A stretch of DNA of 36,061 nt from Deltaproteobacteria bacterium (GTDB taxonomy: Bacteria; Desulfobacterota; Syntrophia; Syntrophales; Smithellaceae). The first letter of the stretch is position 1. Each line of letters begins with the position of its first letter. Under the pieces are notes generated by a model. The model worked only from the letters and a program-made list of their open reading frames with translations, did not search any database and was not told where the DNA came from. Location: assembly GCA_012729055.1 (NCBI GenBank), contig JAAYDW010000089.1, forward strand, positions 1 through 36,061. The letters are read 5' to 3'. This document shows positions 6,421 through 15,488 of this stretch, piece by piece. Made by a program: the position numbers and the translations under genes.

Positions 6421-9400
6421 TCAGTTGAATTCGATTTTATAGTAGATGTCGACGCCGCTGGTCTGCCCCGTTTGCGTTTCCACCTGCCAGTTTTTGTAAA
6501 TGTCGTAGCGCAGAAAAAACAAATTGCCGCCGGAAAAAAGCGAACGCCCGTAGCTTATGTACAGCTGCGGCGTGAGATATTTGCCGACGACCAAAAGCGT
6601 TTCCGGAACGCTCTGCCCGCTGCCGGCGGCGCCCGAACCGGCGGGTCCGACGGGAATGCGCTTGTACCCCATGTGGCCGTTTTGCGTCAAGACATCCGAT
6701 TTGATGTCGAACGTATCAAGACCCAGGCGGTCTTTGATCTGGCGCTGGATCGATTCGGACTGTTGCGAAGTGAGCAGCGCGCCGGCCGCCATGACCAGCA
6801 GGTTGGCCTCTCCGGTGTCGGCGCCCAGCGGATGCCCCAAAACGATGTAAGCCAGCACATCCATGTCCGGCATGGGCGGCTCCGAATACAGTTTAACCAA
6901 GGGATGCGGCAGCGTGCCGCTGACCGTCACGCCCGCGCGGATGTCGCCAATCTTGCGCCAGGCTAAAAGATCCACCGCCGGCCGGTCGATCGGTCCGCCG
7001 GCGTAAAAGATGCGTCCGCGGTCAATATCCAGGTTGACGCCGTACGTTCGGAAGCGTCCTTTGACCACGCGGATTTCACCCCGTCCGTAAATCCGTTCCG
7101 GATCGCGAAATTGCAGGTCGACAGCTCCGCCCAATTGCGCGTCGATGCCGGCGGCTTTGATGAAGACGGCATCGCCCAGCGTCACTTTTGCCGCCACGTC
7201 CAGATCCACCGCCCCCTTGGAGGCCGCGGGCCGGGTTTGTCCTTCGCGGATCACGTCCGAACTTGCCTCGACGGGACCATCCGACTGCATGCCGACGATT
7301 TGCACCACGGGCAGCAGCACTTCGCCGCGGACCGATACTTTTTCCATCGTTCCCGCAAACGAAAGCCTGGGGGAACTTTGCACCTGAAGCTCGGGAAAAT
7401 AAATGGTTTGAAAACGGTCGCCCTGCAGGCGGCCTTCAAAACCGGCGATCCGCCACCCCGAAAGACGGATTTGCGCGGACCCCTCCAGGTGGCCGGGACC
7501 GGACACCGCCCGGAAGGAATCGATAAAGATAGTCTCGTCCTCCAGCCGGGCGGAGATTTGCGTGTCCTGAAGCAGGATACCCGCCGTCGGCAGATACGCG
7601 CCGGCCTGGGACAGGTTTGCCCGCCCCGCGAGCCGGGGAGCGGCCGGTGTGCCGTTTGCCTGCACGTCGAGCGTCAGTTCTCCGCGGCTTTCCTGCACCA
7701 GCCCCGGAAACAGCAGGCCCAGCGCGCCTTTTTCCCGGACTTTTCCCGCAAGCGATGCGTCGAAAGGTTTGTGGCGATCCAGCGCGACCGGCCAACGCGC
7801 AGGCAGGGGCAGGCGGAAGCGGCCGTCCAGCTCGCCGTACTCGGCCAGAGCCAGCGTAAGATTGCCGTGGAGCGTTTCCCCCTCCCAGGTAAAATCGAGC
7901 GCCGCATCGCGCAGATTCATGCGGACATCACCCCGCGGACCGCGCCAGGAAAGACGCGACCGGGCAAGCTCCGCGCGGCCGGCAAGCGAAAAGCGGCCCT
8001 CCGGCAGAAGCTTTCCTGCCGCCTCGCCGCGAATCCGTCCTTCCAGTCCGGCGCGGCCGGGCAGCGCCGTCGCCAGCGGACCCGGATCCAAGCCGTCCAC
8101 CTGCAGCTGAAACCGCCCCGTTTCCGGCAGGGCCAGGCGCGCGGGATCGGAGGAGACAAATTGCCCCTGTACACGGCCTTCTTCGGCCAGCAGAAGGTTT
8201 GCCCGGACCAGAGTGCCTTTTTCATCGGCCTTTAGGCTGATGTCGCCCCGGCGGACGGCAAACGTCTTTCCTTCCGCTTGAAGCGCGCCCGCGAGCGTGA
8301 CGTTTCCGGAGAGCGTCACGCGTTCGTCGTTGTAGACCTGGAGGGACATTCGGCCGCTGGTCGTTCCCGCGAGCGTCTGTGCCTCAAGCCAAAAGTTGGC
8401 CCGGGCGAGATTCAGATCGCTCCAGTCGATGGCAAGCGATGCCGTGAAAGGATCCAGCGAAGCGGCGCCGGACAACCGGAGGGTTTCCCGGCCCGCGCCC
8501 TCGATGCGCAGGGGCGCGAGTACAACGCGCTGCGGCGTGACGGACAGTGAGGCGGGCAGGGCCAGCCGCCAGGAGCCGACGCCGTCCTGGCCTTCCAGCT
8601 TAAGAATTTTTCCCTGCCAGGTCTCCTTGTCGTAAGATCCGGAAAGCGCAAGAAGGATCGTCCGGGAGCGCCCCCGTCCCAGCGAGACGCTGACGGTGTG
8701 CGCTTTTGCCGTACCGCCCGCTTTGATCGTTCCGGTGTCGGCCGCAAGCCCGCCCCAGCGGACGTGCCCGAAGACGGCGTCGAGCGTGGCGGACAGGGGA
8801 GTCTGATCTGAAACAACGGCGGACAGTTGCGCCCGTCCCAGCGCCAGCGGCCCGGCCTGCCAGTTGCGGGCGCGCAGCGTGAGGGCGCCGCCGGGCTTTT
8901 CGCCGCGCCAGCGCGCCCACCCGTCGGCTTCGAAGGATCCTGCGGTTTGCGGGATCAGGCGCGACGAATCGTCGACGCGCGCTTGGAAGGTCACTTTGTT
9001 TTTTACCGAACCGGCGGCGCTAAGAGAAAATCCCTTTCCCGCAAGCGTAAGGCGCGCAATCCGGATATCTTTGCCGTCGAAAGCGGCGTCCAGATTGCCT
9101 TTGAGCTCCCGGCCGTGCAAACGGCTTTCCCGCAGCAGACAGGCGATTTCACCACGGGGAGGATGGTTTTCCCGGAAAATCGCCTTCCCGGACAAATCGA
9201 AATTGATGGCGCCGGTCCAGGACGGATCGATGGCGGCAGGATTGAGATTCCGGCCGCTCAGCGCTCCGGTAACGGCGGGAGCTTCCCGCCAGTCGATCGT
9301 CAGGCCGCCGGCCAGAACGCCGTCGAGCGCTTTTCCCCGGAGATCGGAAAGCGCGAGGCCCTCGGTATTTCCCCGGAAATTGCTCTCCAGGTGAAAGGCT

Positions 9401-10413
9401 TGCGGGCCCCGGACGTCGTTCGTCAGCGCGAGAAGGCCCTGATAGTCACCGGGAGTTCCCGACAAAGAAACGACGCCGGACAGACGCGTGGGAACGTTTA
9501 TTTCCGGATACAGATCAATGCCGGAGGCGCGGGCTTCGAGCGCCAGGACCGGTTCGGGACCGCCGAGCGTAAGCCTGCCGTTTGCCGTGACCAGGCCTGG
9601 TTTCCCCGGACGGGTCAGGCGGACATCCGCAAAGGGGAATCCCTCTTTGGTCATGCCGGCGCGGCCGGTCATCTTCCAGAGCGGCAACGGGCCGCCCGGC
9701 TGCCTGCCGGCGGTAAGCAGAAAATTCCCCTGCAGGTCGCCCGCCTCTTTTCCCGGTCCGAATTTCCCGCCGAGGCGGAAAACATTCAGGCCGGCGGGCG
9801 CAAAGGACAGAACGGCGGCGAGGTTGACGTCCAGCGCAGGGCGGCCGAATCCCGCCACAACGCTTCCGTTCAGGGCAAACGGATCGGTGAGGACAGACAC
9901 GTCGCCCAGCGCCAGCTGGGCGTCTTTCCAGACGACGCCGGCGGTAGCTTTCTCAATAAGCAGGGGCTCCTGATCCGGCCGGGTGTACGACAAACGGTAT
10001 ACCTCCAGCCGTTCGATCCTGCCGCTTGCCAGGCGGATCAGTCCGGAGGCCCGGGGCCAGACAAGGTTGGGCGGCGCGTCGGGCGTGTTGTCCAGAATGG
10101 AGACATCCTGCACGATCAGATGCTGGACGGTGATTGAGCCGGCAATCCAGTCGCGCGGATCGGTTTGCATGGAAAGCGTCCGGATGCGGATTTTTCCCGC
10201 AGGCCACCCGATGTCCAGGCCCTCGAGGCGAAGAGCGCCGGCCAGCTTTCCTTCGATTTTCTGCGCGCTGATCCGGACGTCCGTATGGGAAGAAACCGTT
10301 TCCATGAGCCACCGGACACCGTCCGCCGTCGTGATGAGCCAGATGACGCCGGACAGACCGGCGACAAGCACTGCCGCAAACAGGAGGAGAAAAACTTTTA
10401 TGGTGCGCTTCAA
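6421..10413 (-). CDS. tamB: TamB, inner-membrane-anchored translocation and assembly module protein
   Basis: The 1330-aa product has an N-terminal membrane anchor (about residues 6-28, VFLLLFAAVLVAGLSGVIWL), a very long repetitive beta-rich body typical of AsmA/TamB lipid-groove proteins, and a C-terminal DUF490/TamB domain (about 950-1330) with DLQFRDPERIYGRGEIRVVKG-like sequence and PMPDMDVLAYIVLGHPL. It ends in ...IYYKIEFN, a beta-strand end. The length is close to E. coli TamB (about 1260). TamB spans the periplasm, partners with TamA in outer-membrane protein assembly and is implicated in phospholipid transport. The start codon is TTG, not ATG: TTG at 10413 overlaps the TGA of tamA in the four bases TTGA, with GGTGGGG upstream, so translation is probably coupled. 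It is followed by the amidohydrolase after 12 bp. Confidence 0.92.
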   Translation of the reverse strand: MKRTIKVFLLLFAAVLVAGLSGVIWLITTADGVRWLMETVSSHTDVRISAQKIEGKLAGALRLEGLDIGWPAGKIRIRTLSMQTDPRDWIAGSITVQHLIVQDVSILDNTPDAPPNLVWPRASGLIRLASGRIERLEVYRLSYTRPDQEPLLIEKATAGVVWKDAQLALGDVSVLTDPFALNGSVVAGFGRPALDVNLAAVLSFAPAGLNVFRLGGKFGPGKEAGDLQGNFLLTAGRQPGGPLPLWKMTGRAGMTKEGFPFADVRLTRPGKPGLVTANGRLTLGGPEPVLALEARASGIDLYPEINVPTRLSGVVSLSGTPGDYQGLLALTNDVRGPQAFHLESNFRGNTEGLALSDLRGKALDGVLAGGLTIDWREAPAVTGALSGRNLNPAAIDPSWTGAINFDLSGKAIFRENHPPRGEIACLLRESRLHGRELKGNLDAAFDGKDIRIARLTLAGKGFSLSAAGSVKNKVTFQARVDDSSRLIPQTAGSFEADGWARWRGEKPGGALTLRARNWQAGPLALGRAQLSAVVSDQTPLSATLDAVFGHVRWGGLAADTGTIKAGGTAKAHTVSVSLGRGRSRTILLALSGSYDKETWQGKILKLEGQDGVGSWRLALPASLSVTPQRVVLAPLRIEGAGRETLRLSGAASLDPFTASLAIDWSDLNLARANFWLEAQTLAGTTSGRMSLQVYNDERVTLSGNVTLAGALQAEGKTFAVRRGDISLKADEKGTLVRANLLLAEEGRVQGQFVSSDPARLALPETGRFQLQVDGLDPGPLATALPGRAGLEGRIRGEAAGKLLPEGRFSLAGRAELARSRLSWRGPRGDVRMNLRDAALDFTWEGETLHGNLTLALAEYGELDGRFRLPLPARWPVALDRHKPFDASLAGKVREKGALGLLFPGLVQESRGELTLDVQANGTPAAPRLAGRANLSQAGAYLPTAGILLQDTQISARLEDETIFIDSFRAVSGPGHLEGSAQIRLSGWRIAGFEGRLQGDRFQTIYFPELQVQSSPRLSFAGTMEKVSVRGEVLLPVVQIVGMQSDGPVEASSDVIREGQTRPAASKGAVDLDVAAKVTLGDAVFIKAAGIDAQLGGAVDLQFRDPERIYGRGEIRVVKGRFRTYGVNLDIDRGRIFYAGGPIDRPAVDLLAWRKIGDIRAGVTVSGTLPHPLVKLYSEPPMPDMDVLAYIVLGHPLGADTGEANLLVMAAGALLTSQQSESIQRQIKDRLGLDTFDIKSDVLTQNGHMGYKRIPVGPAGSGAAGSGQSVPETLLVVGKYLTPQLYISYGRSLFSGGNLFFLRYDIYKNWQVETQTGQTSGVDIYYKIEFN

Positions 10414-12275
10414 AATTCAAACCCCACCGTGAAATGAATGCGAAACCGGGGCTCCTCCACGCCGATCTGCCGGGCCAGCGACAAATTCAACGCGCCGACC
10501 GGCGTGAAGTAGTGAATGCCTGCGCCCGCGGCCTGGTAGAGCCGGACATCGGCGAAGGAATCGAAAGCGTTGCCGGCGTTGTAAAAAGCCGATACCGCCC
10601 AGTTGTCGAAGAGCGCCCGCTGCAGTTCGACGCTGCCGGTGAACAGATGCTTGCCGCCCACCACGTTTCCCAGCGCGTCTTTGGGACCCAGCGACTGATA
10701 GGCGTAGCCGCGGACGCTCTGGTCGCCGCCCGCGAAAAAACGCAGGGACGCCGGAATTTCGTCCAGCGGGTCCGACAGGAAGGTGATGCCGGCCCGGACG
10801 CTTGTTGCCAGGGACAGGCGCCAAGGCAGGGATAGAACGTGGCCGGCTTCGCCGATCAGCTGCAGGAGCTGCGTGGTCGACCCCAGGGCCATGTGCGTGC
10901 CGCGCAAATCCAGAGCGTAACGGAAACCGCGACGGGGGCGGATCAGGTTGTCATAACGGTTCTCCGAAAAGCGGACGCCCGGGAGCACATACCGCGAAGA
11001 GGCATCCTGGAGGCCGATGGTGTATTCCTCCTGCTGAAACCGGACATAAACGCTTCCATCCCTGCGCGGGCCGAAGCTTGTGTTCCGGGCCAGTTCCAGG
11101 GCGATGAGACGGGTCCGGTAGGTCGTGACATCCTCGTGCTGCGCGTTGATCCGGACGGAGGTGAAGGTCCGGATGTCTTTGGCCCCAGGAATGATGTAGT
11201 TTGCGGCGAGCCCCTGCAACCGCTCCGAGATAAACAGATGCGTGTCGAGTTCGTGGCCCCGGTTAAAGATGTTCAGGTCCCGGTAGCGCAGGGCAAACCG
11301 GGCGCCCGTGTCCGTTCCGTATCCCACGCCCGGCCTGAGGCTCCGGCGCGGCGCCTGCTTGAGCAGGACGCGCACCGGAATCCGCCGGTCCTGCGCTTTT
11401 TCCTTATCCGCCAGGATGACGACTTCGCGGAAGCGCTCCGAGTTGTTCAGTTGCAGCTGGGATTCGGCCAGCCGGGCATAGGAAAACGTGTCGCCCGGGG
11501 CGAAGGTCAGGTGGCGCCGCACATAGTCGTCGGGGTAGTCGGGCGCGCCCTCCAGCGTAACGGTGGAAAAATAATACCGCTCGCCGGTTTCCAAAACGAG
11601 CGTCAGCTGCGCGAATTTGGCGTCAGGATCGATCCGGATTTCATGCCTGCTGTAATCGGCGTCCAGGTAACCCAGTTCCTGCGCCCGCGTTTGCAGCGCC
11701 CGTTTGCCCTGCTCGTAGGATTCATGCAGAAGAACGGCATCTTTGGCCAGCGGAAAGGCTTTCGCCAGAGCCACGAGCGACGGTTCGGCTGCGCCGGCCC
11801 CGGAAAGCGAAATCCGGACGTCCGACACGATGACCGGTGGACCCGGCTCCACGCTCACCCGGATGAGATAGACGTCGGGTTGCGGATTTTCCAGATGCAC
11901 CGCGGCACGGGCCGAGTAATAACCGAACGGTTCAAGGGCGGCGAGGATTTTCCGGTCAGCGCGACGGACAAAACGCTCCAGCCAGAGCCGTTCGACTTTT
12001 CCGTCCTTCACCAGACCATACGGCAGCTCCAGCGCTTTTTCGACATTTTTGCGGGCGTCTCCGGAAACGCCTTCGATGACAACGGTGACCGGTTCGGCGC
12101 CGTGCGCAAAGAAGGCAAAGACCGCTGTACACAGGAGACAAAGAAGCAAAAGGGCGCGCGGCGATCGCTTCCCGGCCTGCCGGGCCGAACGGGCCCGTTG
12201 GGCCTGCCTGGGAAGCGCTTCAGGCCCGGGCGGTTTCCTGCGGAGGTTTTTTGCCGGCTCGTTTAATCCATCCAT
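10410..12275 (-). CDS. tamA: TamA, outer-membrane Omp85-family assembly protein
   Basis: The 621-aa protein has a basic N-terminus, a signal segment (about residues 40-60, LLLLCLLCTAVFAFFAHGAEP), three POTRA-like domains (about 62-310, the first beginning VTVVIEGVSGDARKNVEKAL) and a C-terminal 16-strand barrel with the Omp85 signature VRGY (GGDQSVRGYAYQSLGP, about residue 515) and a final Phe (FTVGFEF), the usual barrel signal. TamA is the outer-membrane partner of TamB; adjacency to tamB supports TamA over BamA. The 40 residues before the signal segment are unusually long, so the true start may lie downstream of ATG 12275, but no better ATG with a ribosome-binding site is seen. This is the first gene of a four-gene minus-strand operon. 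Confidence 0.9.
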   Translation of the reverse strand: MDGLNEPAKNLRRKPPGPEALPRQAQRARSARQAGKRSPRALLLLCLLCTAVFAFFAHGAEPVTVVIEGVSGDARKNVEKALELPYGLVKDGKVERLWLERFVRRADRKILAALEPFGYYSARAAVHLENPQPDVYLIRVSVEPGPPVIVSDVRISLSGAGAAEPSLVALAKAFPLAKDAVLLHESYEQGKRALQTRAQELGYLDADYSRHEIRIDPDAKFAQLTLVLETGERYYFSTVTLEGAPDYPDDYVRRHLTFAPGDTFSYARLAESQLQLNNSERFREVVILADKEKAQDRRIPVRVLLKQAPRRSLRPGVGYGTDTGARFALRYRDLNIFNRGHELDTHLFISERLQGLAANYIIPGAKDIRTFTSVRINAQHEDVTTYRTRLIALELARNTSFGPRRDGSVYVRFQQEEYTIGLQDASSRYVLPGVRFSENRYDNLIRPRRGFRYALDLRGTHMALGSTTQLLQLIGEAGHVLSLPWRLSLATSVRAGITFLSDPLDEIPASLRFFAGGDQSVRGYAYQSLGPKDALGNVVGGKHLFTGSVELQRALFDNWAVSAFYNAGNAFDSFADVRLYQAAGAGIHYFTPVGALNLSLARQIGVEEPRFRIHFTVGFEF

Positions 12276-12430
12276 TTGTCACCAACCTTGTTTTCCGTTG
12301 CCGGTGACGTTCGCCTGGACCAAACGGTAAAACGGGAGGTTCCGAAAGCTTAAGGCATGTATCGGGCGAATGCAACAAGAAGATGTTCTTTCCGGGGCCG
12401 CGCGCCGTTTCGGCGGGGGAAAAGGCGTTG

Positions 12431-12460
12431 CGCCGCCGGCCGAGCGATCGACCGGCGGCG
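12431..12460 (-). terminator. Candidate terminator after the SOR-like genes
   Basis: This is a GC-rich hairpin with arms 12431-12440 and 12451-12460 pairing at 9 of 10 positions around a 10-nt loop. It lies 25 bp past the stop of the 123-aa gene. In the minus direction it is followed by CAACGCCTTTTCCCC, only a short T-run, so efficiency is doubtful. It separates that gene from tamA. Confidence 0.4.
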
Positions 12461-12485
12461 TCCGGCGCGTTCATTTCCACGTGGA

Positions 12486-12857
12486 CTAGGGCTTTCCGGC
12501 GCCGACGGTAAGCGTCGCCGTTTTTTTGCCCGAGATGTTGCAGAAGGCGGTTACTTCCAGAATGTCTCCTGCAGCCGCCGGAACCGCGTACGCATAGGCA
12601 AACGTCACCTTGCCTGTCTGTGAGGAATATTCCTTTTTCTCCGCCGGTTCGCCGTTGCGGCTGATCGACACCTGTTTGATGTAGTGCAGGCCGGTAAACG
12701 TGGACTTGTGCGTGATCGTCACGGTCAGGACTTGCGTCGCAAGGTCGTAGCTGAGGGCGATGTCCCGGGGCGAATCGGCCAGGGCGCCGGGCGGCGCAAG
12801 CAGGACGCCCGCCGTCAGGCAGCAAAGCAGCATCAGCATTGCAAGGGTCTTCTTCAT
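12486..12857 (-). CDS. Exported protein with superoxide-reductase-like fold, incomplete iron site (paralogue A)
   Basis: This 123-aa protein has a clear signal peptide (MKKTLAMLML... cleavage near GALA-DS) and a strong ribosome-binding site (AAAGGAG). The mature ~95 residues resemble the immunoglobulin-like catalytic domain of desulfoferrodoxin/neelaredoxin: a His followed by a His-Tyr-Ile (His50, His58 in TH...LHYI), and a C-terminal CN-x-x-G motif (Cys106). True superoxide reductases bind iron with four His and one Cys, including HPM....H and CNxHG. Here the His after Cys is Ser109, the His-His spacing is 8 rather than 6, and the N-terminal His is not evident. It may therefore bind metal differently or not at all. 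The neighbour upstream is a paralogue with the same architecture. Iron binding is inferred, not shown. Confidence 0.8.
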   Translation of the reverse strand: MKKTLAMLMLLCCLTAGVLLAPPGALADSPRDIALSYDLATQVLTVTITHKSTFTGLHYIKQVSISRNGEPAEKKEYSSQTGKVTFAYAYAVPAAAGDILEVTAFCNISGKKTATLTVGAGKP

Positions 12858-12882
12858 GATTTCTCCTTTGAACAGAAAAATT

Positions 12883-13257
12883 TTAAGGCATCACGGTCAG
12901 CATAGACGATGTCTTGCTGCCGTACATGTTGCAGGTGGCCGTGACCACGAAGGTGTCTTCCTCGATAGCGGGCATTTTATACTCATAGGTGAAGGTTTTT
13001 CCGGTCGGTTGGGAGCCGTACGTGTTGATGCTCACGATGGCGCCGTTTTTCTGGATTTTGACGACTTTGACGTGGTGGGAGCCTTTCAGCATCGTGTCGT
13101 GCGAGATGGTGACCGACAGGGTCTGCGTGGCCAGGTTGTATTTCAGTTGGATGTCTTCCGGTGGTGTGGCAAAAGCCGGCTCAGCCGCCGCCAGTCCGAA
13201 AAAAACAAGAATCAACGCCTGAAAAAACAGCCGGGTTGCTTGGCGATTGCTTTTCAT
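12883..13257 (-). CDS. Exported protein with superoxide-reductase-like fold, incomplete iron site (paralogue B)
   Basis: This 124-aa protein starts at ATG 13257, preceded by AAGGAGGGG; an in-frame ATG at 13314 would overlap the upstream gene and hide the signal peptide (about residues 10-30, ending AEPAFA). It shares its layout with the 123-aa gene 25 bp downstream: PEDIQLKYNLATQTLSVTI matches PRDIALSYDLATQVLTVTI, and both keep a His (His53), a His-His/His-Tyr pair (His61-His62) and Cys109 in CNMYG. As in the other copy, the canonical CNxHG histidine is replaced, here by Tyr112. The pair looks like a tandem duplication followed by divergence. Probable location: periplasm. The neighbouring rubredoxin-like protein supports, but does not prove, a redox role. 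Confidence 0.8.
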   Translation of the reverse strand: MKSNRQATRLFFQALILVFFGLAAAEPAFATPPEDIQLKYNLATQTLSVTISHDTMLKGSHHVKVVKIQKNGAIVSINTYGSQPTGKTFTYEYKMPAIEEDTFVVTATCNMYGSKTSSMLTVMP

Positions 13258-13294
13258 TTCTTCCCCTCCTTGTATTAATTTCTCGGCCGTTCGT

Positions 13295-13855
13295 TTAGCC
13301 GGGGAATTTGGCATCCAGGAGCTTTCCGCCGATCAGGCCCAGAAGACCGCCGCACAGGGAAACGACAAGGGCCAGCAAAAGAAGGATCAGATGCGTCGTC
13401 AAGGTCGTCAGATCTCCCCAAAGGGCGAGAATGGCCAGCGCGGCGGCGGCGGTGAAAAAGATCAGGCTGAGAATCATCTTCTTTTTCAAGAGCGGTGTTG
13501 TGACTTTGCGAAATCTCAGTTTACCGTCCAGAAGACCGGTGGCGACGGCCGCCAGCACGGAAAAAGGCAGCAGAACCGAAAGGACGGTGATGGTTGAATA
13601 AATCGCGGCCGCGCAGCGAGCGAGGGGAAAGAAGGCCACGACGGCAAGCAAAAGCAGCGTGAGAGCGAAAGCCTGCGGAAAATGAACCAACACCGGATGC
13701 GTGTGCAGGTCCAATATTTTTCGTCTTTTGAGGGATACCGGGTGCTTATAGGGCTCAAACATTTTTGCCGGAACGCCGCAGGCCGGGCAGACATCTCCGA
13801 CCTTGCTCTCTTCCGTTACAAATCCGCAGGCTTTGCATCTGACGAAATTTTCCAT
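13295..13855 (-). CDS. Rubredoxin-like metal-binding domain fused to DUF2231-type membrane domain
   Basis: This 186-aa protein begins with a rubredoxin/rubrerythrin-type knuckle pair: CKAC (Cys7, Cys10) and CPAC (Cys23, Cys26), about 36 residues in all, shorter than a full rubredoxin (about 52). It continues with the HPVLVHFPQA motif typical of DUF2231 and four predicted transmembrane helices (about residues 58-78, 84-106, 125-145, 152-175). A membrane redox protein that carries electrons via an iron or zinc centre is the reasonable reading; which metal is bound cannot be told. It is the first gene of a three-gene minus-strand set with the two SOR-like proteins (37 and 25 bp gaps). It is driven by a near-consensus promoter at 13949-13921 and diverges from cydAB. 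Confidence 0.83.
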   Translation of the reverse strand: MENFVRCKACGFVTEESKVGDVCPACGVPAKMFEPYKHPVSLKRRKILDLHTHPVLVHFPQAFALTLLLLAVVAFFPLARCAAAIYSTITVLSVLLPFSVLAAVATGLLDGKLRFRKVTTPLLKKKMILSLIFFTAAAALAILALWGDLTTLTTHLILLLLALVVSLCGGLLGLIGGKLLDAKFPG

Positions 13856-14162
13856 GTTGTCTACCCCTGTTTGGTTGTCTTGGCCGATGCTTGGGGGGCC
13901 GGAGCCAAAAACTCGATCGTAGATTAATGTATGTTACGGCTTTTGTCAAAGAGAACAAAGCAAAAGGCATGCCGACGGCTTAAAGCCGCGCAGTTCCGCA
14001 TCCGGCAAAGGATTGTCGCCGCCGGCGGTTTTCTTCCGGCTGCCTTTTGCGCAAGATGACCCGTTCATTTTGATCACCCTGCGCCGGAGCCGGCCATTTA
14101 GTGATTGAAAAAGTCCCGGGATTTCTATACCCTGATGATACTTCAGCCTTAGGGAGGCGGTT
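13856..14162. other. Divergent intergenic region between the rubredoxin-like gene and cydA
   Basis: This 307-bp gap separates oppositely oriented redox genes. It holds the minus-strand promoter at 13921-13949. For cydA only a weak candidate is seen (TTGAAA 14105-14110, 15-nt spacer, TATACC 14126-14131), followed by a good ribosome-binding site (TTAGGGAGGCGG). No coding region, RNA gene or clear operator is recognised between 13950 and 14100. Confidence 0.6.
13921..13949 (-). promoter_or_regulatory. Near-consensus sigma70 promoter of the rubredoxin-like/SOR-like operon
   Basis: On the minus strand: TTGACA (-35; + coordinates 13949-13944), exactly 17 nt, then TAATCT (13926-13921). It ends 65 bp before the ATG at 13855. 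A strong promoter for this exported redox set is notable, since it suggests substantial constitutive or derepressed expression. Confidence 0.7.
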
Positions 14163-15488
14163 ATGGATGCGTTGCTTCTGGCGCGGTTACAGTTTGCCTT
14201 TACCATTGGTTTCCACATTCTCTTTCCGATGATGACGCTTGGCACCGCGGGGGTCATCCTGCTTTCGGAGACGCTCCATCTGGTTAAAAAAGACGACGTC
14301 TACCGCCGGATCACGGATTATCTGGTTCGTCTCCTGGCCCTCATCTTCGTCGTCGGAGCGGCCACCGGCATCGTCATGGAATTTTCGTTCGGCACCAACT
14401 GGTCTTCCTATGCGCGCACGGTGGGAGACATTTTCGGGCCGCTTTTGGCCGCCGAAGGCATTATGGCTTTCTTTCTGGAATCGGTTTTCATCGGTGTTTT
14501 GCTTTTCGGAAGGAACAGGGTATCGCCACGCGTTTACTGGGTCTCGGCGCTGCTCGTCTTTATCGGCGGACACCTTTCGGCCTTCTGGATCGTCGTGGCC
14601 AATTCCTGGATGCAGACGCCGGCGGGATATGAGATCACGGCCGGCGGGAAGATCCTGCTCGTCGATTTTTCCGAGGCGGTTTTCAACCCGTCCACGATGG
14701 TCCGGCTGGTGCACACGATCATGGCTTCCTGGGTGACCTCCGCCATAATGGTTTCCGGCATCGCCGCCTATTATGTCCGCAAAGGCCTGCACGGAGAAAC
14801 CGCCCGGACGATGCTGAAAATGGGCATCCTTCTCTTCGCGGCCACGCCCCTTTTGCAGTTGGGCGCCGCCCACGCGCACGCCATTCAGGTGATCGACACG
14901 CAGCCGGTGAAGGCGGCGGCCATGGAAGGGCATTTCCAGACCACCCGCGGCGCGGACATCTATGTTTTCGGATATGTGGACGAAGCCGCCGAAAAAACGT
15001 ACGGCCTTTTCCTGCCCGGCGGATTGAGTTTTTTATACAACTTTGATTTCAATTCGGAGATCAAGGGCCTCAAAGAGGTTGAGAAGGATCAGTGGCCGCC
15101 CGTCAATCTGGTCTTTCAATCGTACCACATCATGGTGACGCTGGGGATGGCCTTTATCGGCGTCGGGCTTTTGGGGGCGCTGCTTTTGTGGACCGGCAGA
15201 CTTTACACGACGAAATGGTTTCTCTGGATTCTGCCTTTTCTCATTCCGTTGCCTCATGTTGCGCACGAAACCGGCTGGATCACCGCAGAGGTCGGACGCC
15301 AGCCCTGGATTATTTACGGGCTCATGAAAACGGCCGCCGGCGCGTCTGTCGTCGTCTCGGCCGGCGAGCTTGCCTCGAGCCTGATGATGTTTATCCTGGT
15401 TTATGTCCTGTTGTTTGTCATGTTTCTGATGCTGTTTTTGAAAATCGTGAAAAAAGGGCCGGAGCCGGCGCCGGAAGGGAGGGCGTGA
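14163..15488 (+). CDS. cydA: Cytochrome bd oxidase subunit I
   Basis: The 441-aa membrane protein carries the quinol-binding and heme sites of cytochrome bd, which reduces O2 to water with quinol electrons. Visible ligands and signatures are His18 in QFAFTIGFHILFP (heme b595), the EGIMAFFLES pair of glutamates eight apart (proton/heme-site glutamates), a second His in the VHTIMASWVTSAIM helix (b558), and ITAEVGRQPW near the C-terminus. The region between helices VI and VII is short, so this belongs to the short Q-loop (CIO-like) group rather than the long-loop E. coli type (about 520 aa). The start is ATG 14163 with GGGAGG upstream. It is followed after 2 bp by cydB. In an anaerobe its likely job is oxygen scavenging. 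Confidence 0.95.
   Translation: MDALLLARLQFAFTIGFHILFPMMTLGTAGVILLSETLHLVKKDDVYRRITDYLVRLLALIFVVGAATGIVMEFSFGTNWSSYARTVGDIFGPLLAAEGIMAFFLESVFIGVLLFGRNRVSPRVYWVSALLVFIGGHLSAFWIVVANSWMQTPAGYEITAGGKILLVDFSEAVFNPSTMVRLVHTIMASWVTSAIMVSGIAAYYVRKGLHGETARTMLKMGILLFAATPLLQLGAAHAHAIQVIDTQPVKAAAMEGHFQTTRGADIYVFGYVDEAAEKTYGLFLPGGLSFLYNFDFNSEIKGLKEVEKDQWPPVNLVFQSYHIMVTLGMAFIGVGLLGALLLWTGRLYTTKWFLWILPFLIPLPHVAHETGWITAEVGRQPWIIYGLMKTAAGASVVVSAGELASSLMMFILVYVLLFVMFLMLFLKIVKKGPEPAPEGRA

Follow-up and report, generated by a model that had tools for sequence, protein, structure and literature searches.

Superoxide reductase (SOR), or desulfoferrodoxin (PF01880), has a described exported branch: exported SORs are recognized as a small class, TAT-SOR (PMC3116461), and a periplasmic SOR has been listed (PMC10066037). 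A second route to oxidant defence is the lipocalin–cytochrome b561 pair BcnA–LcoA, presented as a peroxyl-radical system (PMC9113575). Within the literature searched, which included few subscription papers, we found neither a paper joining desulfoferrodoxin with cytochrome b561 nor an SOR branch that has Sec-type signals and fewer ligands and is associated with b561 or cydAB. The locus considered here suggests an unrecognized system, located beyond the inner membrane, for protection against oxygen or for electron transfer, because genes related to its central pair often adjoin, and in one case fuse to, heme electron carriers.

The M-A-B gene set and its surroundings

The window, the whole stretch of DNA that was analysed, spans 36,061 nucleotides of a Smithellaceae contig (JAAYDW010000089.1) and contains three consecutive genes, here called M, A, and B, with the following features and neighbors.

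13921–13949, minus strand: promoter-like site 5′ of M (TTGACA, 17 nt, TAATCT)
13295–13855, minus strand: gene M, 186 aa, rubredoxin-like head (two CxxC) and four-helix domain
ATG at 13257 to stop at 12883, minus strand: gene A, 124 aa, SOR-derived, with a predicted Sec-type signal
12486–12857, minus strand: gene B, 123 aa, SOR-derived, with a predicted Sec-type signal
14163–15488, plus strand: CydA, cytochrome bd oxidase subunit I, divergent neighbor (PF01654, 496.9 bits)
10410–12275, minus strand: TamA-like Omp85 protein, downstream of B (PF01103, 95.2 bits)

The genes run in the order M-A-B, separated by 37 nt between M and A and by 25 nt between A and B, and a Shine-Dalgarno-like GGAG precedes both A and B; an alternative, longer reading frame for A begins at 13314. 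A first-pass annotation of this DNA had described the set as diverging from cydAB behind a near-consensus promoter. The divergence holds, with cydA on the opposite strand. The promoter holds in part: the TTGACA element matches at 6/6 positions and is followed by a 17-nt spacer, but TAATCT matches at only 3/6. The window holds two instances of the pattern TTGACA-N16-18-TANNNT where 0.21 would be expected, and a stricter scan of 12300–14300 found no promoter. Downstream of B lie TamA and then TamB, together occupying 6421–12275. In four mapped relatives (L095, L101, L104, and L106) the TamA/TamB genes stand between the A/B gene and an amidohydrolase, and a TamA cluster was seen in 8 loci among the A/B neighborhoods. 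The TamA-like neighbor probably lies outside the M-A-B system.

A and B are paralogues, identical at 46/99 aligned positions (E 2e-21), whose N-termini, read by eye, resemble Sec-type signals and would leave mature chains of 94 aa for A and 96 aa for B, in agreement with the first-pass description of two secreted paralogues of about 95 residues. No twin-arginine pair (RR) occurs in the first 60 residues of either frame. From these features we infer that both proteins are exported to the periplasm. Their duplication is not recent, since in a tree that leaves out 1 short row they fall into different supported sets, A within a clade of 8 rows (support 100/99) and B within a clade of 12 (99/97).

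Relation of A and B to superoxide reductase

The first-pass annotation rested on a resemblance of A and B to SOR, which a direct profile search reveals only faintly: B reaches 15.3 bits against PF01880, below the cut-off of 22.2, and a Pfam scan of A returned no match at E 0.05. The connection emerges through comparison of profiles. A profile of 31 homologues of A and B (A5), aligned by hhalign with a profile of 15 SORs of relatives (A4, taken from 15 of the 27 SOR loci over cut-off), gave 68.7% with E 4.6e-5, and the alignment pairs His50, His58, and Cys106 of B with SOR His69, His75, and Cys116, placing Ser109 on His119. Five intermediate proteins, found by the family profiles with E 4.9e-13 to 1.7e-8, keep the CNxHG motif, and all five pass PF01880 (29.0 to 36.3 bits). 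Their profile (A10) matches that of A and B at 98.0% (E 1.6e-13) and that of SOR at 96.0% (E 4.9e-9), as well as the solved putative SOR 2amu (E 7e-5). Among distant homologues, PF01880 matches below the cut-off reach 20.4 bits (L226); of five distant members scanned with Pfam, two gave such matches and three nothing alike. The resemblance thus stands as real homology, and the profile chain leads us to conclude that A and B share remote ancestry with SOR but lie outside the SOR family itself. A PDB sequence search with B alone yielded 0 matches, and a plasmid search with L226 yielded none. The sole PDB matches of profile A5, to PI3K C2 domains (E 0.039 to 0.9), were judged to be chance, and the Kinesin, lipocalin, and CopC matches seen in family members all fall below their cut-offs.

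The predicted fold is consistent with this relationship. The model of B has seven strands and a mean pLDDT of 85.5, and the Foldseek top 20 comprises 13 SOR chains, counting two titled hypothetical PH1083 that we take to be SOR, together with 5 SoxYZ chains. By VIA-align the best match is 1v8h, presumably SoxZ (Z 11.2, 2.3 A, 89 residues), and SOR 4d7p (Z 9.6) scores on a par with unrelated Ig/Fn3 domains; the fold therefore agrees with SOR but does not decide. Judged by the order of strands in the model, the sandwich should have the N-terminus together with His50, His58, and Cys106 at the same end, an arrangement found in SOR.

SoxZ was considered as the parent family and rejected: the fold is close, but hhalign against 10 SoxZ sequences gave 7.9% over 14 columns. 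SOR and SoxZ profiles compared with each other score 3.1%, so this control is blind to very remote links. No Pfam match to SoxZ (PF08770) was found for the window proteins, and a SoxZ search of 118 genomes of the phylum gave 0 matches, its control searches being silent too, and is hence uninformative. One of the five intermediates (L169:5879–6271), which passes PF01880 at 36.3 bits, barely passes SoxY as well (PF13501, 28.5 bits, cut-off 28.4).

Conserved residues and the candidate metal site

The family to which A and B belong is present in 98/155 genomes of the order and in 21/395 drawn over the phylum, and the names on its contigs, where given, are Syntrophaceae, Smithella, Smithellaceae, or deltaproteobacterium. 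Our counts refer to 126 homologue rows with E below 1e-8, drawn from related genomes and hence not independent. Of the 123 loci collected, 118 supply these rows and five had been fetched for M; weaker or unfetched matches (G078, G401, G364, G008 contig 5, G451 contig 183, and G500) were left out. Two members carry the SOR-like domain within larger proteins: at L207:1144–2004 its fusion partner is OmpA (71.0 bits), at L205:485–1363 a Cds6_C NTF2-like domain (63.8 bits).

The most conserved columns in B numbering are His50 (126/126), Cys106 (124/126), and His58 (124/126), followed by Tyr77 and Pro30 (123/126 each) and Gln80 (119/126). The aligned SORs carry CNxHG in 15/15, with the two His spaced by 6, and EKHVP in 15/15; the latter is absent from A and B. 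The two departures that the first-pass annotation had singled out are both present: the His pair is spaced by 8 (His50/His58 in B, His53/His61 in A), and the His after the Cys is replaced, by Ser109 in B (C106-N-I-S109-G) and by Tyr112 in A (C109-N-M-Y112-G). Across the 126 rows this Cys+3 position holds Phe in 38, Ser in 20, Tyr in 18, Trp in 13, Gln in 13, His in 8, and others in 16. The window pair accordingly retains 3/5 SOR ligands, two His and one Cys.

The loss of two ligands makes true SOR activity of the window pair unlikely, and electron transfer or another substrate likelier. That A and B are nonetheless periplasmic superoxide reductases working with fewer ligands strikes us as very improbable. 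The homology itself speaks for it, as do three relatives possessing all five ligand types, and exported SORs are a known class (TAT-SOR, PMC3116461); against it, A and B lack both EKHVP and the His of CNxHG, each invariant in the aligned SORs, and miss the PF01880 cut-off.

A different reading takes the same loss of ligands as a sign of structural re-use, with A and B serving as Ig-like envelope adaptors without metal and the His and Cys residues forming a structural or thiol site. The preference of VIA-align for 1v8h, the parity of SOR with Ig/Fn3 domains, and the SoxYZ chains among the Foldseek matches would fit such a role, and the OmpA and NTF2-like fusions show use as an envelope module. 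The three remaining ligands, however, are the most conserved columns of the family, and they persist among the 40 rows that have M or cydA as a neighbor (His50 in 40, Cys106 in 40, His58 in 39); the SoxZ profile comparison likewise offers this reading little. We consider it unlikely, while giving it more weight than any other competing account.

Small residues occupy positions −1 and −3 relative to residue 28 in 120/126 rows, suggesting cleavage before that residue, and the predicted mature N-terminus so defined is His in 57/126. In B this position is Asp28 and in A it is Thr. Three relatives (L226, L227, and L237), each beside a b561 gene, combine the N-terminal His with His109 for a total of four His and one Cys. 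The N-terminal His accompanies b561, occurring in 38/46 rows with a b561 neighbor against 19/78 without (Fisher p 2e-10, a guide only, the rows being related; 2 rows unreadable at that column are left out). On the tree, each of the two labels, N-terminal His and b561, needs 3 changes.

Two His and one Cys form the core of type 1 copper sites. A and B might on that basis be copper proteins, CopC-like or blue-copper-like carriers whose ligand set the N-terminal His completes in relatives, an account that we hold to be rather improbable. One member does match CopC weakly (E 0.12), and a heavy-metal ATPase cluster recurs near A/B genes at 13 loci, 8 of them with b561 (the single member scanned has HMA and E1-E2 domains); yet the CopC match is far below the cut-off, the ATPase lies on the opposite strand in 11/13, and the N-terminal His is missing from A and B themselves.

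Possible membrane partners

A b561-type cytochrome is the commonest partner found, adjoining 46/126 rows (45 distinct b561 genes), always on the same strand (46/46), nearly always downstream (45/46), and with at most 282 nt between reading frames. Three His are conserved in 44/44 b561 rows and a fourth in 43/44; PF03188 was exceeded in 3/5 tested neighbors, the other two scoring 22.7–22.8 against a cut-off of 23. At L252:5307–6233, beside a b561-type gene, the SOR-like domain is fused to DOMON (PF03351, 98.4 bits). Other genes recur around A/B: a beta-lactamase-fold protein at 30 loci, 22 with b561, and a flavodoxin-like FMN reductase at 18 loci, 16 with b561.

An exported beta protein linked to b561 is also the architecture of BcnA–LcoA (PMC9113575), and scavenging of lipid or quinone radicals, as proposed for that pair, would be an alternative function. 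One family member gives a sub-threshold lipocalin match (18.8 bits, cut-off 23). No lipocalin match over cut-off was found among the members scanned, and radical scavenging leaves the conserved His, His, and Cys and the SOR homology unexplained; we regard it as improbable, somewhat more so than the copper account.

The cytochrome bd gene cydA lies less than 4 kb from 36/126 rows, on the opposite strand in all 30 loci of its cluster, and only 4 of these 36 rows have the N-terminal His. Among rows near cydA that lack the N-terminal His, 14 have no M. M itself is near 22/126 rows, with the N-terminal His in 0 of 21 readable rows and one row unreadable. The remaining 40/126 rows have no b561, cydA, or M neighbor, some of them standing at contig ends. 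A single strand at L096:6594–8138 carries M together with a hemerythrin gene (PF01814, 57.6 bits) and a gene of the A/B family. The first-pass annotation had named two observations that would speak against its reading, a model without SOR-like fold and homologues never near oxygen-handling or rubredoxin-like genes; a SoxYZ/SOR-like fold is predicted, and cydA is a recurrent neighbor. Neither of the two was observed, and the reading was not refuted, but the leading partner is b561 and not rubredoxin.

Protein M has the rubredoxin-type CxxC pair and four membrane helices originally proposed for it: RUBY_RBDX (PF21349) scores 31.5 bits over a cut-off of 26.5, and the model (mean pLDDT 75.7) contains four helices. 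In a fold search the head resembles the rubredoxin domain of rubrerythrin, and the bundle is unspecific. Among 23 M rows the four Cys are kept in 22, 22, 23, and 23, and three His in 23/23. The four-helix part carries a motif, HxHPxxVHFP, also found in DUF2231 proteins, although M against DUF2231 scores 10.5 bits, below the cut-off of 26.4. A cytochrome-b5-like head was recognized by eye in 13 of 14 DUF2231 frames inspected (17 loci), and 3 that were scanned pass PF00173. In the genus, a genome generally has either rubredoxin-headed M or a cytochrome-b5-headed DUF2231 protein and seldom both: across 20 genomes, some only about 67% complete, M occurs in 12, DUF2231 in 9, both in 1, and neither in 0 (loci L264 and L266–L276, and the window at 13295–13855). 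This exchange of heads suggests an electron-carrying membrane module.

Direct donation of electrons by a rubredoxin to A and B, as the first-pass annotation implied, is at best weakly supported. The charge pattern places the head of M probably in the cytoplasm and A and B look exported, and of 18 genomes with M the A/B gene is beside M in 13, elsewhere in 2, and lacking in 3; b561 is also the more frequent neighbor of the two (46 against 22 rows).

There is no b561 gene in the window. The same genome (G000) has one b561 match, on contig C97 (33.2 bits), and the profile built from b561 genes at A/B loci matches it as well (E 2.2e-30). There (L290:1486–2804) a beta-lactamase-fold gene is followed directly by b561; the A/B gene that stands between the two in relatives, L120 among them, is missing, and both A/B genes of this genome are by cydAB. 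The b561 retained on C97 could therefore be available to serve A and B. A DOMON search of the genome came back empty, its control searches being silent as well. On contig C39 (L001:1501–2426) the genome also carries an ordinary desulfoferrodoxin of the Dx type, which includes the N-terminal domain (78.8 and 71.2 bits) and is encoded next to a rubrerythrin (82.4 bits).

A proposed periplasmic redox module and its known counterparts

Of the readings weighed, we favor the periplasmic variant redox system first suggested for this locus, shorn of direct rubredoxin donation. In its general form, that A and B are periplasmic metal-redox proteins which handle oxygen or superoxide and are served by an electron carrier in the membrane, we consider it evenly poised between true and false. 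A and B, derived from an SOR domain, would sit in the periplasm and hold one metal ion, iron or copper, by the near-invariant two His and one Cys, to which many relatives would add the N-terminal His left by signal-peptide cleavage. The site would exchange electrons with a membrane carrier, presumably the b561-type cytochrome in many relatives; for the group that includes the window, the candidates would be M, the b561 encoded on another contig, or the quinol system associated with cytochrome bd. A and B may then clear superoxide or some other oxidant, or shield the envelope, upon leakage of oxygen. The homology, the conserved columns, the signal-like N-termini, the gene order, and the fusions are observed; location, metal, electron flow, and substrate are what this reading adds to them. 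A fuller version is possible and is offered tentatively, as we think it less likely than not: an SOR-derived periplasmic electron-transfer module whose mononuclear site has shrunk to two His and one Cys, joined in some members by an N-terminal His. Electrons would reach this site through the inner membrane, coming from b561-type cytochromes or from DUF2231-like proteins with a rubredoxin or cytochrome-b5 head, and the module would constitute an envelope branch of oxygen defence in syntrophic anaerobes.

If true, an SOR domain, best known from the cytoplasm, has moved outside the membrane, lost ligands, and become linked to heme proteins of the membrane. Among relatives there are members with five, with four, and with three ligand types, from which an order of loss may be read. 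The system would be a candidate for how Syntrophales anaerobes handle periplasmic oxygen by-products and would hint at the role of DUF2231-like membrane modules.

Each of the known systems shares part of this arrangement. SoxZ of the SoxYZ sulfur carrier (PF08770) is among the closest solved folds, yet the profile comparison found no relation to A and B, and 10 SoxZ rows have no conserved Cys. BcnA–LcoA has in common an exported beta protein linked to b561 and a role in envelope oxidant defence (PMC9113575); it belongs to a different protein family, and A and B have a candidate metal site. Cytochrome b561 with DOMON (PF03188 and PF03351) is approached by the relatives that stand beside b561-type genes and by the single DOMON fusion, with the difference that the outer domain here is SOR-derived and that the b561 of the window's genome is on another contig. 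TAT-SOR is likewise exported, and A and B differ from it by their Sec-type signals without RR. SOR/desulfoferrodoxin (PF01880) itself lacks none of the features that A and B have given up, namely the equivalents of His49 and His119, EKHVP, the His spacing of 6 in place of 8, and a score over the Pfam cut-off; it is nevertheless the homologous domain, with His, His, and Cys aligned on His69, His75, and Cys116.
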